NCBI GenBank assembly: GCA_030263595.1 | Contig: SZPG01000004.1 | Coordinates: 1-64,000 of the forward strand | Source of the DNA: Chloroflexi bacterium CFX6 | Lineage (GTDB): Bacteria; Chloroflexota; Anaerolineae; Anaerolineales; Villigracilaceae | Reading direction: 5' to 3' | Length of the DNA: 64,000 nt | Shown: in pieces, positions 6,010 through 7,842 of the stretch | How positions within the stretch are numbered: the stretch's first letter is position 1 | Layout: each line of letters starts with the position of its first letter | Translations under genes and position numbers: made by a program | Notes under the pieces: generated by a model | Told to the model about the DNA's origin: nothing | What the model saw: the letters and a program-made list of their open reading frames with translations, nothing else | Databases searched by the model: none

Positions 6010-7269
6010 TTAGGCGGGTGCGATCCTCGTGCCGGCGGGTATCTCCGTGTCCTTCGCGATCACCACGATCCCGTCGCGCACGTAATAGAGCGCGCCGTCA
6101 ACGTCCTTGTGCTCGCGCGGGAAGGGCAGGATCGTCACGTTATCGCCGATGCGCGCGTTCTTATCGAGGATGGCGGATTCGATGCGGCAGTTCCTGCCGA
6201 TGCCGATCGGGATACTGCCGCGCGGCTTTTCCATGTTGTAATAGTCCGCGCCCATCACAATGCTGTCCTTGATCACGGTCCCCTCCGCGATCTGACTGCG
6301 GAGACCGACAATGGAATGCGAGATCTTCGCCTTGCGGATACGGCATCCCTCGGCGATCAACACGTCCTTCAACTCGCTGTCTTCGACGGTCGAACCGGGC
6401 AGAAAGCGTGCGTGCGTATAGATCGGCGCTATGGCGTCATAGAAGTTGAAGGGCGGGTTCGGGCTCGTCAATTTCAAATTCGTTTCGTAGAACGAACGGA
6501 TCGTCCCGATGTCCTCCCAGTATCCGTCGAAATCGAACGCGTACACTTCGTGCGATTGGATGGCTTCGGGGATGATCTCGCCGCCGAAATCATCCTGCCG
6601 CAAATGATAATTGAGCAGGTCGTTCAACACCTTCGTCCTGAACATGTAAATTCCCATCGAACCCAGGAAGGGACGCTCCGGGTCGTCCCGGCTGACGAAT
6701 TCTTTCTGGACTTCAGGGTCCTTGGGCTTTTCGACGAACGATGCAATGTGACCGTCCGCCTCGACCTTCAACAGGCCGAAACGGGACGCCTCGCTTCGCG
6801 CGACGGGTTGGACTGCCACCGTTATATCGGCTTTCGTCTCCCAGTGACGTTCCGCCATCTCCCGGTAATCCATGCGATAGAGATGATCGCCCGCCAGGAT
6901 CAGCACGTACTCCGCGCCCGTCGCCTGGATCTCGAATAGTTGTTTCCGCACTGCATCCGCCGTGCCTTGATACCAGTCTGCGCTCTGGGGCGTCTGCTCC
7001 GCCGCCCAGACCTGCACCCAGCCGGTGTGGAACACGTCGAAGTTGTAGGCTTGGGAAATGTGCCGGTGGAGCGAAACAGAATTGAACTGGGTCAGAACCG
7101 CAATGCGATAGATCCCCGAATTGATGCAGTTGCTGATGGGAATATCAATCAGGCGGTATTTCCCCGCGATCGGCACGGCGGGCTTCGAGCGCAACTGGGT
7201 GAGCGGGTGCAAACGCGATCCCCGTCCCCCTCCCATGATGACGCCCAATACATCGTTCATTGACGGCAT
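6010..7269 (-). CDS. glgC: Glucose-1-phosphate adenylyltransferase
   Basis: Makes ADP-glucose from ATP and glucose-1-phosphate for glycogen synthesis. The 419 residues are the usual length. The N-terminal nucleotidyltransferase domain has GGGRGSRLHPLT near residue 14, KPAVPIAGKYRLIDIPISNC, GTADAVRKQ, and AGDHLYRMDY near residue 125; the C-terminal third is a left-handed beta-helix (for example IADSIVMGADYY-like repeats). The start at 7269 follows AGGAGG by 6 nt. No other glycogen gene is in the window. It sits between two Mn2+-riboswitch units on the same strand, so read-through from the upstream unit is possible although 120 bp of repeat lies between. Confidence 0.93.
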   Translation of the reverse strand: MPSMNDVLGVIMGGGRGSRLHPLTQLRSKPAVPIAGKYRLIDIPISNCINSGIYRIAVLTQFNSVSLHRHISQAYNFDVFHTGWVQVWAAEQTPQSADWYQGTADAVRKQLFEIQATGAEYVLILAGDHLYRMDYREMAERHWETKADITVAVQPVARSEASRFGLLKVEADGHIASFVEKPKDPEVQKEFVSRDDPERPFLGSMGIYMFRTKVLNDLLNYHLRQDDFGGEIIPEAIQSHEVYAFDFDGYWEDIGTIRSFYETNLKLTSPNPPFNFYDAIAPIYTHARFLPGSTVEDSELKDVLIAEGCRIRKAKISHSIVGLRSQIAEGTVIKDSIVMGADYYNMEKPRGSIPIGIGRNCRIESAILDKNARIGDNVTILPFPREHKDVDGALYYVRDGIVVIAKDTEIPAGTRIAPA

Positions 7270-7287
7270 GGCAGACCTCCTTGGATT

Positions 7288-7380
7288 CCGTCATCGCGAG
7301 GGGCATTTGCCGCGACGTAACGATCTCCCCAATTGAGTTGGAACATACCGCGCGGCGGATTGCCTCCTCGCAACGACAGG
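7288..7380. repeat. Dispersed palindromic repeat (GTCATTGCGAG family)
   Basis: Ends CCGTCATCGCGAG (7288-7300) and CTCGCAACGACAGG (7367-7380) are imperfect inverted repeats of the family seen at 1196-1283. It fills the gap between glgC and the small riboswitch-controlled gene. Confidence 0.6.
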
Positions 7381-7389
7381 ATGCCGCTA

Positions 7390-7497
7390 TTATCTCCTAA
7401 AACCAAAAAGCCGGCGCGCCTTTGCCAGGATGAAAACGAACGGATATGCCAGCAGGATCAGCGCGTCTATCAGCGCAAAGAATATGTGTAGTTTCAT
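7390..7497 (-). CDS. 35-residue single-span membrane protein behind a Mn2+ riboswitch
   Basis: A short open frame follows the second riboswitch. ATG 7497 has GGAGG 7 nt upstream, a very good ribosome site. The product begins MKLHIFFALIDALILLAYPF, continues with VFILAKARRLFGFRR and stops at 7390. Residues 4-25 form one hydrophobic helix and the C-terminus is strongly basic, so an N-out/C-in single span is expected. I know of no family for it. By context it should appear when Mn2+ is high and may act on a Mn2+ transporter, perhaps the nearby P-type ATPase; that role is inference. It is too short for routine gene callers. Confidence 0.65.
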   Translation of the reverse strand: MKLHIFFALIDALILLAYPFVFILAKARRLFGFRR

Positions 7498-7521
7498 CTC
7501 TTGCCTCCGTGTTTCGTCCGA

Positions 7522-7557
7522 AATAAAAGCGCGAAACCGCCTGATTGGCAGTCTCGC
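7522..7557 (-). terminator. Rho-independent terminator of the second riboswitch
   Basis: Minus-strand GCGAGACTGCC pairs over 11 bp (two or three G-U pairs) with GGCGGTTTCGC around AATCA and is followed by GCTTTTATTT. It has the same position and GCGAGAC core as the ATPase terminator. Confidence 0.8.
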
Positions 7558-7672
7558 GAACGCATTGGGCTTCTACGCGCAGATGACCGGGAGCGTTCGG
7601 GGGCGAACGAGACTCCGTCCTGACGATCATCTGCCCTGCGCGGGTACGACCCGGGCAGGCGCTACTCCCTGA
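7531..7672 (-). promoter_or_regulatory. Second yybP-ykoY-type (Mn2+) riboswitch
   Basis: Minus strand: CAGGGAGTAGCGCC at about 7659-7672, then GATCGTCAGGACGG, CGCGTAGAAGCC and GCGTTCGCGAGACT running into the terminator. The blocks and their order match the element at 5803-5955 while the variable stems differ, as expected for two members of one riboswitch class. It controls the 35-residue membrane protein rather than a transporter. Confidence 0.75.
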
Positions 7673-7682
7673 ATACAAGTCT

Positions 7683-7711
7683 ATTGTACAATGCCGAAAT
7701 GGCAAAGTCAA
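7683..7711 (-). promoter_or_regulatory. Sigma70-type promoter for the second riboswitch
   Basis: The -35 TTGACT is at 7706-7711 and the -10 TACAAT at 7683-7688, with a 17-nt spacer. The spacer holds an inverted repeat TGCC-ATTTC-GGCA, placed like the dyad in the ATPase promoter but of different sequence. Confidence 0.8.
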
Positions 7712-7842
7712 CGCTTCTGCATGATCGTCTTATAAAACACCTACAGGGCGGCAAGGTTCTGCTCATAACGATAATGATCCCGTCCGAGCCGGTTGAGGTC
7801 CTGGCGGTGAGAAAACAATATTCCCCATGATAAAATATCTTC

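Follow-up and report, generated by a model that had tools for sequence, protein, structure and literature searches.

Here, we ask why a leader that resembles the Mn2+-sensing yybP-ykoY riboswitches stands before a gene for a hydrophobic peptide of only 35 residues, and what such a peptide might do. The locus lies on contig C54 (minus strand) of the source assembly (4.07 Mb, 141 contigs), which comes from an uncultured Anaerolineales-type bacterium, within a stretch of 64,000 nt that was analysed as a whole and is called the window in the following. Read 5' to 3' on that strand, promoter, leader, terminator, GGAGG and peptide ORF are followed by a spacer, glgC, a second leader and an ATPase gene. 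Respective coordinates are listed in Table 1.

Table 1. Features of the locus in their order along the minus strand (positions within the window).
Feature	Position	Strand	Basis
Sigma-70-type promoter, TTGACT-17 nt-TACAAT	7711-7683	(-)	10/12 consensus matches
yybP-ykoY-type riboswitch aptamer, divergent subfamily, P1.1 strands CAG (5') / CUG (3')	7549-7675	(-)	R1 and R2 matches, covariation
Intrinsic terminator, 5' arm contains P1.1 3' strand	7558-7530	(-)	12-pair stem, then CTTTTATTT
35-codon peptide gene, ATG at 7497, stop at 7390	7497-7390	(-)	ORF list
Spacer, 120 nt, strong imperfect hairpin without T run	7389-7270	(-)	folding
glgC, glucose-1-phosphate adenylyltransferase	7269-6010	(-)	NF002772, TIGR02091
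Second riboswitch, same class, ahead of ATPase gene	5952-5851	(-)	RF00080 sub-threshold; R1 training member
P2-type cation ATPase, nearest PMR1/SPCA (Ca2+/Mn2+) type	5735-3036	(-)	TIGR01522, TIGR01517, solved-structure search

The promoter with 17-nt spacing, the intrinsic terminator and the 35-codon frame that a preliminary description had proposed are all present, as is its GGAGG, which precedes the ATG of the peptide (by eye). The description had furthermore placed a P-type ATPase gene about 1.7 kb away, in agreement with a start codon 1.65 kb from the end of the peptide ORF, and had mentioned neither glgC nor the ATPase gene's own riboswitch. Its peptide unit headed by a riboswitch holds as far as the elements are concerned, but the unit continues past the peptide: the next gene and probable second member of the transcription unit is glgC (NF002772 with 579 bits, cut-off 537; TIGR02091 with 456 bits, cut-off 425).

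Two promoter-like sites occur within 7250-7800 (shuffles average 0.5), terminator-like sites were detected three times (shuffle mean 0.6), and the leader (7684-7498) folds better than 200/200 shuffles (z -3.2). TTGAC(T/A)-17-TA(C/G)AAT-like sites are also seen by eye 5' of the peptide in several relatives, with the riboswitch present or absent. The hairpin of the spacer (-62.8 kcal/mol, z -4.3) is equalled by 1/200 shuffles. It had made us suspect a dispersed repeat, but a DNA search of the genome returned only its own copy. By eye, the hairpin is also found in the relative G001 and is absent from G005, where the spacer is short.

Rfam's yybP-ykoY model (RF00080) gives no match at the leader of the peptide, neither at the gathering score nor at E up to 10. 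The preliminary description had named the absence of such a hit as evidence against itself; the hit is indeed absent, because the model is too insensitive for this lineage. The leader of the ATPase gene is found with 13.6 bits (E 0.07, below cut-off), two further matches of similar weakness occur in the assembly (one on the doubtful contig C141), and sub-threshold matches (E <= 0.1) were obtained in 5/20 relatives' loci, the best with 30.7 bits vs. 45. The other Rfam families reported at the locus, i.e., tfoR (E 0.001, terminator part, 22.8 bits vs. 70), STnc420 and NrsZ, are far under their curated scores and were rejected as chance.

Since Rfam gave nothing or only weak RF00080 matches, a covariance model (R1) was built from own and related leaders. 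It comprises 19 leaders, 18 of which belong to P-type ATPase genes and one (L080) to a TerC gene; the ATPase leader of the window and L001 (contig C141) are included, a peptide leader is not. Its structure covaries (0.58 vs. 0.27 in shuffles; 0/500 shuffles as high). Although outside the training set, the leader of the peptide is recognised at 7675-7576 with 42.2 bits (E 8.7e-9; the tool itself describes the E-values of R1 and R2 as rough). Within the window, it ranks second after the ATPase leader (79 bits, trained on), and the third match has only 9.5 bits. As a control, we applied R1 to 10.5 kb of E. coli sequence, where the leaders of alx (24.6 bits, E 2.7e-5) and mntP (21.4 bits, E 1.7e-4) are the sole matches at E up to 10, i.e., one upstream of each Mn2+ exporter gene. 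Because R1 also detects these two, we assign the leader, despite the Rfam miss and judged from its sequence, to the yybP-ykoY (Mn2+) architecture, as the preliminary description had it. R1 matches at E <= 0.1 are found in 136/152 genomes of the same taxonomic family, which reveals a divergent Mn2+ riboswitch subfamily that is largely missed by Rfam's model.

Known members of the class (RF00080; L. lactis yoaB, X. oryzae, E. coli mntP and alx) have in common with it the GGGGAGUAGC loop and a CGUCA loop with the metal-sensing A; the leader of the peptide retains GGGAGUAGC, CGUCA, CGG and P1.1. An overlap of P1.1 and terminator is likewise common to both, and exporter genes (P-type ATPase, TerC) are the usual downstream genes in this lineage. 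The locus differs in that its leader is under RF00080 detection and heads a small membrane protein and glgC, not an exporter directly.

A second model (R2) was built from 17 leaders before the peptide, glgC or both. These share the GGAGUAG and CGUCA loops and paired helices (24 pairs, 96.8% of cells paired) and covary (0.42 vs. 0.18 in shuffles; 0/500 reach the score). R2 scores the window leader, a training member, with 80.8 bits at 7549-7673. Among 152 genomes, 23 matches reach at least this value, 17 of which were used for training, and the next ones follow without a gap (80.3, 78.2 bits). The subfamily is present in several genera. A recent within-genus copy of the ATPase riboswitch was rejected as the simplest view of its origin, because leaders of this type form their own subfamily, with their own P1.1 pairs, in several genera.

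These pairs were read from the three bases on the 5' side of GGAGUAG and the three on the 3' side of AGA, and 107/108 leaders were counted; the degenerate leader L131 of G087 (24.6 bits with R1, without GGAGTAG) was excluded from this count and from R2. P1.1 is UGG/CCA in 76/90 leaders of ATPase or other genes, with the three pairs incomplete, as read by script, in 13/90. CGG/CCG or CAG/CUG is found in 6/6 glgC leaders and 10/11 peptide leaders; the exception (L195) is a misplacement by the script, and the alignment shows CGG/CCG. Overall, 300/321 pairs were observed, compared to a mean of 285 and a maximum of 292 in 1000 shuffles. P1.1 covaries with the terminator arm, and in the window its CUG lies within the 5' arm of the terminator.

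Two studies of the class describe that Mn2+ stabilises P1.1 against the terminator (PMC6754395, PMC11087558). Given that the 3' strand of P1.1 is common to the terminator arm, an ON switch is predicted, with a direction that follows the known class by analogy. Without Mn2+, this strand would go into the terminator and transcription would halt at about 7530. With Mn2+, the aptamer would dock, P1.1 (CAG/CUG) would form and the terminator would be blocked, such that RNA polymerase could read into the peptide gene and probably onward into glgC.

Mn2+ as the presumed ligand fits because most surveyed leaders precede P2-type ATPases or TerC. Namely, 91/99 R1 matches have a P2-type ATPase gene within 6 kb downstream on the same strand, in a non-random sample of peptide loci and high-scoring matches. 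Of the other eight, three lie ahead of ORFs of one kind (318-321 aa); two of these proved on testing to encode TerC, the family that E. coli Alx belongs to. TerC-type loci behind a riboswitch are L080 (1483-1702), L234 and L241, one of the three being assigned by eye. In L240, L244 and L271, the riboswitch precedes ORFs of about 410 aa that by eye resemble membrane components of exporters.

The peptide itself (MKLHIFFALIDALILLAYPFVFILAKARRLFGFRR, 35 aa) belongs to a family with the motif MKL..F.LID..ILLAYP.....R. In a first set of 14, relatives span 97% to 44% identity, and the broad profile A5 finds 122 loci in 89/152 genomes of the taxonomic family (E <= 0.001). Among 249 genomes of the class, 20 have a match, 12 of them from the same family and the other 8 with weak matches only (E 0.01-0.1). 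The 21 named records with the peptide are metagenome-assembled genomes of Anaerolineales, Anaerolineae or Chloroflexi. No variation was seen at D11, LAYP and R28 in 14 glgC-linked sequences, nor at D11 in a broader set of 25. Between G000 and G001, codons 2-33 show 5 synonymous and 0 non-synonymous changes. For 50 glgC-linked copies, the median pN/pS is 0.37 over the 255 closer pairs (of 1225), and some pairs come close to dN/dS 0.7. Of the differences from the window copy, 894 are at third, 658 at first and 339 at second codon positions. By these measures, the peptide is genuine, conserved and subject to purifying selection, which settles in the affirmative two checks that the preliminary description had named.

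AlphaFold predicts one helix (residues 2-30, mean pLDDT 87, pTM 0.42), in accordance with the single hydrophobic helix and basic C-terminus proposed before. Its hydrophobicity suggests that this helix inserts in the membrane; by the positive-inside rule, the C-terminus is probably in the cytoplasm. Pfam reports no family over 25 members (three weak single-member matches, best E 0.022), NCBIfam gives no match for the window peptide, and a solved-structure search with the peptide profile yields a chance match alone (E 0.51). As neither Pfam nor NCBIfam offered a model, we regard these small membrane proteins as a new family.

The best model of the ATPase is TIGR01522 (PMR1 type; 769.5 bits, under the cut-off of 798.3), and TIGR01517 (PMCA type) is just over its cut-off (508.1 vs. 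507.05 bits). Being under the former and passing the latter, we call the protein PMR1-like and not PMR1-type. Its best solved relative is human ATP2C1/SPCA1 (E 3e-188); PMR1 and SPCA1 transport Ca2+ and Mn2+.

Evidence for a relation of peptide and ATPase comes from gene order. We fetched 100 peptide loci, giving priority to strong matches and adding weaker ones of interest: glgC follows the peptide in 59, 2 show the order riboswitch-peptide-ATPase without glgC (G032, G064), 8 have the peptide behind an ATPase gene and 31 adjoin neither gene (L103 and L197 among these lie at contig ends). Searching from the ATPase side, the peptide is found 38-59 nt behind 8/29 matches to window-like ATPases (several cut by contig ends), and in 7/8 of these loci R1 matches upstream of the ATPase gene, with other genes between in some. 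A5 scores the eight ATPase-following peptides with 2e-15 or better but contains three of them; profile A2, which lacks all eight, still gives E-values from 1e-6 to 4e-3. Reciprocally, a profile of the eight alone has peptide-family ORFs as 58/60 best matches (18,872 ORFs, first 60 loci). Their kinship to glgC-linked peptides is supported mostly by the first 17-25 residues. In 23 of the 59 glgC-linked loci, an ATPase gene downstream of glgC and on the same strand starts no more than about 3.3 kb from the peptide. Most g9 loci fetched show peptide and glgC without an ATPase alongside, which speaks against the ATPase as partner. Gene order, which is no proof of contact and was compared across genomes that include metagenome-assembled ones, lends the ATPase link independent though not exclusive support. 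For the preliminary description, which had linked the peptide to the ATPase, this means that the association recurs in glgC-free arrangements of relatives but is not exclusive.

We prefer, tentatively and at slightly less than an even chance, a Mn2+-responsive unit: Mn2+ would prevent termination, the peptide and probably glgC would then be expressed, and the peptide would probably be an accessory or regulator of the ATPase. It would most likely bind the PMR1-like ATPase, whose downstream gene is itself headed by a riboswitch of this class, and stabilise or tune this likely Mn2+ exporter. Since it would be induced alongside the exporter, a helper would fit better than an inhibitor.

Such a role has parallels. 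Sarcolipin and phospholamban are one-helix micropeptides on SERCA, a P2A-type ATPase, and thereby resemble the proposed pair; being animal proteins, they serve as an analogy only. The enterobacterial MgtS, MgtR and MgtU are not known to be headed by a Mn2+ riboswitch. The peptide has in common with the MgtS/MgtR type a short, conserved and selected ORF, one predicted helix and linkage to a transporter gene, with linkage to glgC being commoner. According to PMC10710835, these three proteins (28-31 aa) target the P-type ATPases MgtA and MgtB and alter how stable these are; they are likewise small proteins of P-type ATPases, but of Mg2+ importers in enterobacteria. MntS of E. coli (42 aa) is a proposed inhibitor of MntP and likewise a small protein tied to Mn2+ export (PMC4361602). 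It is made at low Mn2+ (MntR repression), whereas our peptide is predicted at high Mn2+ and with a P-type ATPase as candidate partner. Proteins of this size do act on metal transporters (PMC4361602, PMC10710835). In full-text searches of an open-access library that lacks most subscription papers, we noticed no report of a Mn2+ riboswitch before a small membrane protein or before glgC.

Extended to the whole family, the proposal reads that bacterial PMR1/SPCA-like Mn2+ ATPases have one-helix proteins of 33-42 aa as micropeptide subunits or regulators under metal control. The synthesis of some of these proteins would be switched directly by a Mn2+ riboswitch, and since this riboswitch would also control glgC, glycogen synthesis would be coupled to manganese. 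We consider this generalisation doubtful. If true, it would be a bacterial equivalent, in kind, of sarcolipin acting on SERCA, and, should the peptide act on the ATPase, the locus would offer a compact test system for one-helix control of a P2-type pump. The data suggest that such pumps may be helped by very small membrane proteins under metal control.

Against the ATPase as partner stands that glgC is the commonest neighbour of the peptide (73/122 peptide loci). The family's genomes contain 128 glgC loci (in 125/152 genomes), and in 73 of these the peptide lies 31-268 nt upstream on the same strand. One may thus argue that the peptide serves glgC: the riboswitch would adjust glycogen synthesis to Mn2+, the peptide would act as a membrane anchor or regulator of GlgC, and the ATPase would be a mere neighbour. 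Among the 23 best R2 matches, the 9 that are followed by glgC without the peptide (G106 and G114 assigned by coordinates) also favour this; the remaining ones precede peptide-glgC (9), peptide-ATPase (2) and ATPase without peptide (3). Therefore, the riboswitch heads a unit that misses the peptide or glgC in different genomes, and 12/23 of these matches are without the peptide, which again weakens the ATPase reading. We also screened 40 glgC upstream regions, namely 39 of the 55 loci without a peptide call plus G034, and obtained 8 R1 matches, 6 of them with no peptide found. In these six (L345, L353, L366, L344, L362, L355), a Mn2+-type riboswitch and a terminator precede glgC with no peptide gene between. 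The link of riboswitch and glgC thus stands independently of the peptide and reveals glgC as a gene tied to a metal riboswitch. A peptide that serves glgC is nevertheless unlikely, since peptides occur beside riboswitch-controlled ATPases without glgC in two arrangements, paralogues lie away from both genes, and 55/128 glgC loci are without the peptide by the profile used (some at contig ends; G110 had a divergent peptide).

The coupling of peptide and leader is loose as well. Short frames after such leaders, which the preliminary description had proposed to look for in related genomes, do occur in some, but of the 59 fetched peptide-glgC loci only 8 have an R1 match in the 300 nt ahead of the peptide, including the degenerate L131 (for L104, the upstream sequence is too short to judge). 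Locus counts thus exclude that the peptide is bound solely to the riboswitch or solely to the ATPase. The low number of riboswitch-headed loci and the 31/100 loci without either neighbour speak against the ATPase as partner. The latter loci also favour a general one-helix membrane family without fixed partner (membrane stress, quality control) that was repeatedly recruited to operons. Consistent with this, 17/30 paralogue loci examined share one common upstream gene family (L120, L121, L124, L125, L132, L134, L173, L176, L177, L180-L182, L184, L185, L188, L189, L204), none of these 17 with an R1 match at E <= 0.01, and 5/30 have the peptide before acetyltransferase-like proteins (by eye). Repeated riboswitch-ATPase operons, however, exceed what random partners would produce, and the conserved D11, together with LAYP in the glgC-linked set, argues for a specific contact. 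We hence regard a family without fixed partner as quite unlikely.

A short ORF directly 5' of glgC with a hairpin between might also be a leader peptide, i.e., its translation and not its product would control glgC; this is highly improbable, since the amino acid sequence is conserved beyond a mere open frame, homologues exist behind ATPase genes and at unlinked loci, and the hairpin is missing from the short spacer of G005 (by eye). The invisibility of the leader to Rfam and its R1 score of about half that of the ATPase leader may suggest that it senses a different metal or is a decayed ATPase riboswitch copy without function. This is similarly far-fetched given the loops, CGG and P1.1 that the leader retains, the compensatory changes across the subfamily and the presence of the latter in several genera.

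Some further observations concern the leaders and their surroundings. A pattern search of the own genome found 4 sites, as did a reversed control pattern, so the pattern alone proves nothing. The site on contig C141 (G000), that of L001, lies in a stretch identical in 3128/3128 bases to contig C145 of G162, which is from another genus of the same family. Sequence was probably binned wrongly into one of these two assemblies, and the site may therefore be a contaminant. Leaders of the peptide's type often lie directly behind a tRNA-Leu-like 3' end; in the window, the respective string falls inside the promoter spacer, probably by chance.

Finally, 17/29 window-like ATPases have, by a motif of our own, a gene upstream for another small protein of the MSANAASALRKYWKPALATGAGG... 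type, about 73-87 aa long and with a single hydrophobic stretch. Respective loci are L001 (1432-1651), L165, L167, L168, L170-L172, L242, L243, L245, L250, L253, L261, L267, L274, L277, L283 and L284. In several, it lies directly behind the riboswitch, and 6 also carry a peptide of the 35-aa type behind the ATPase gene.
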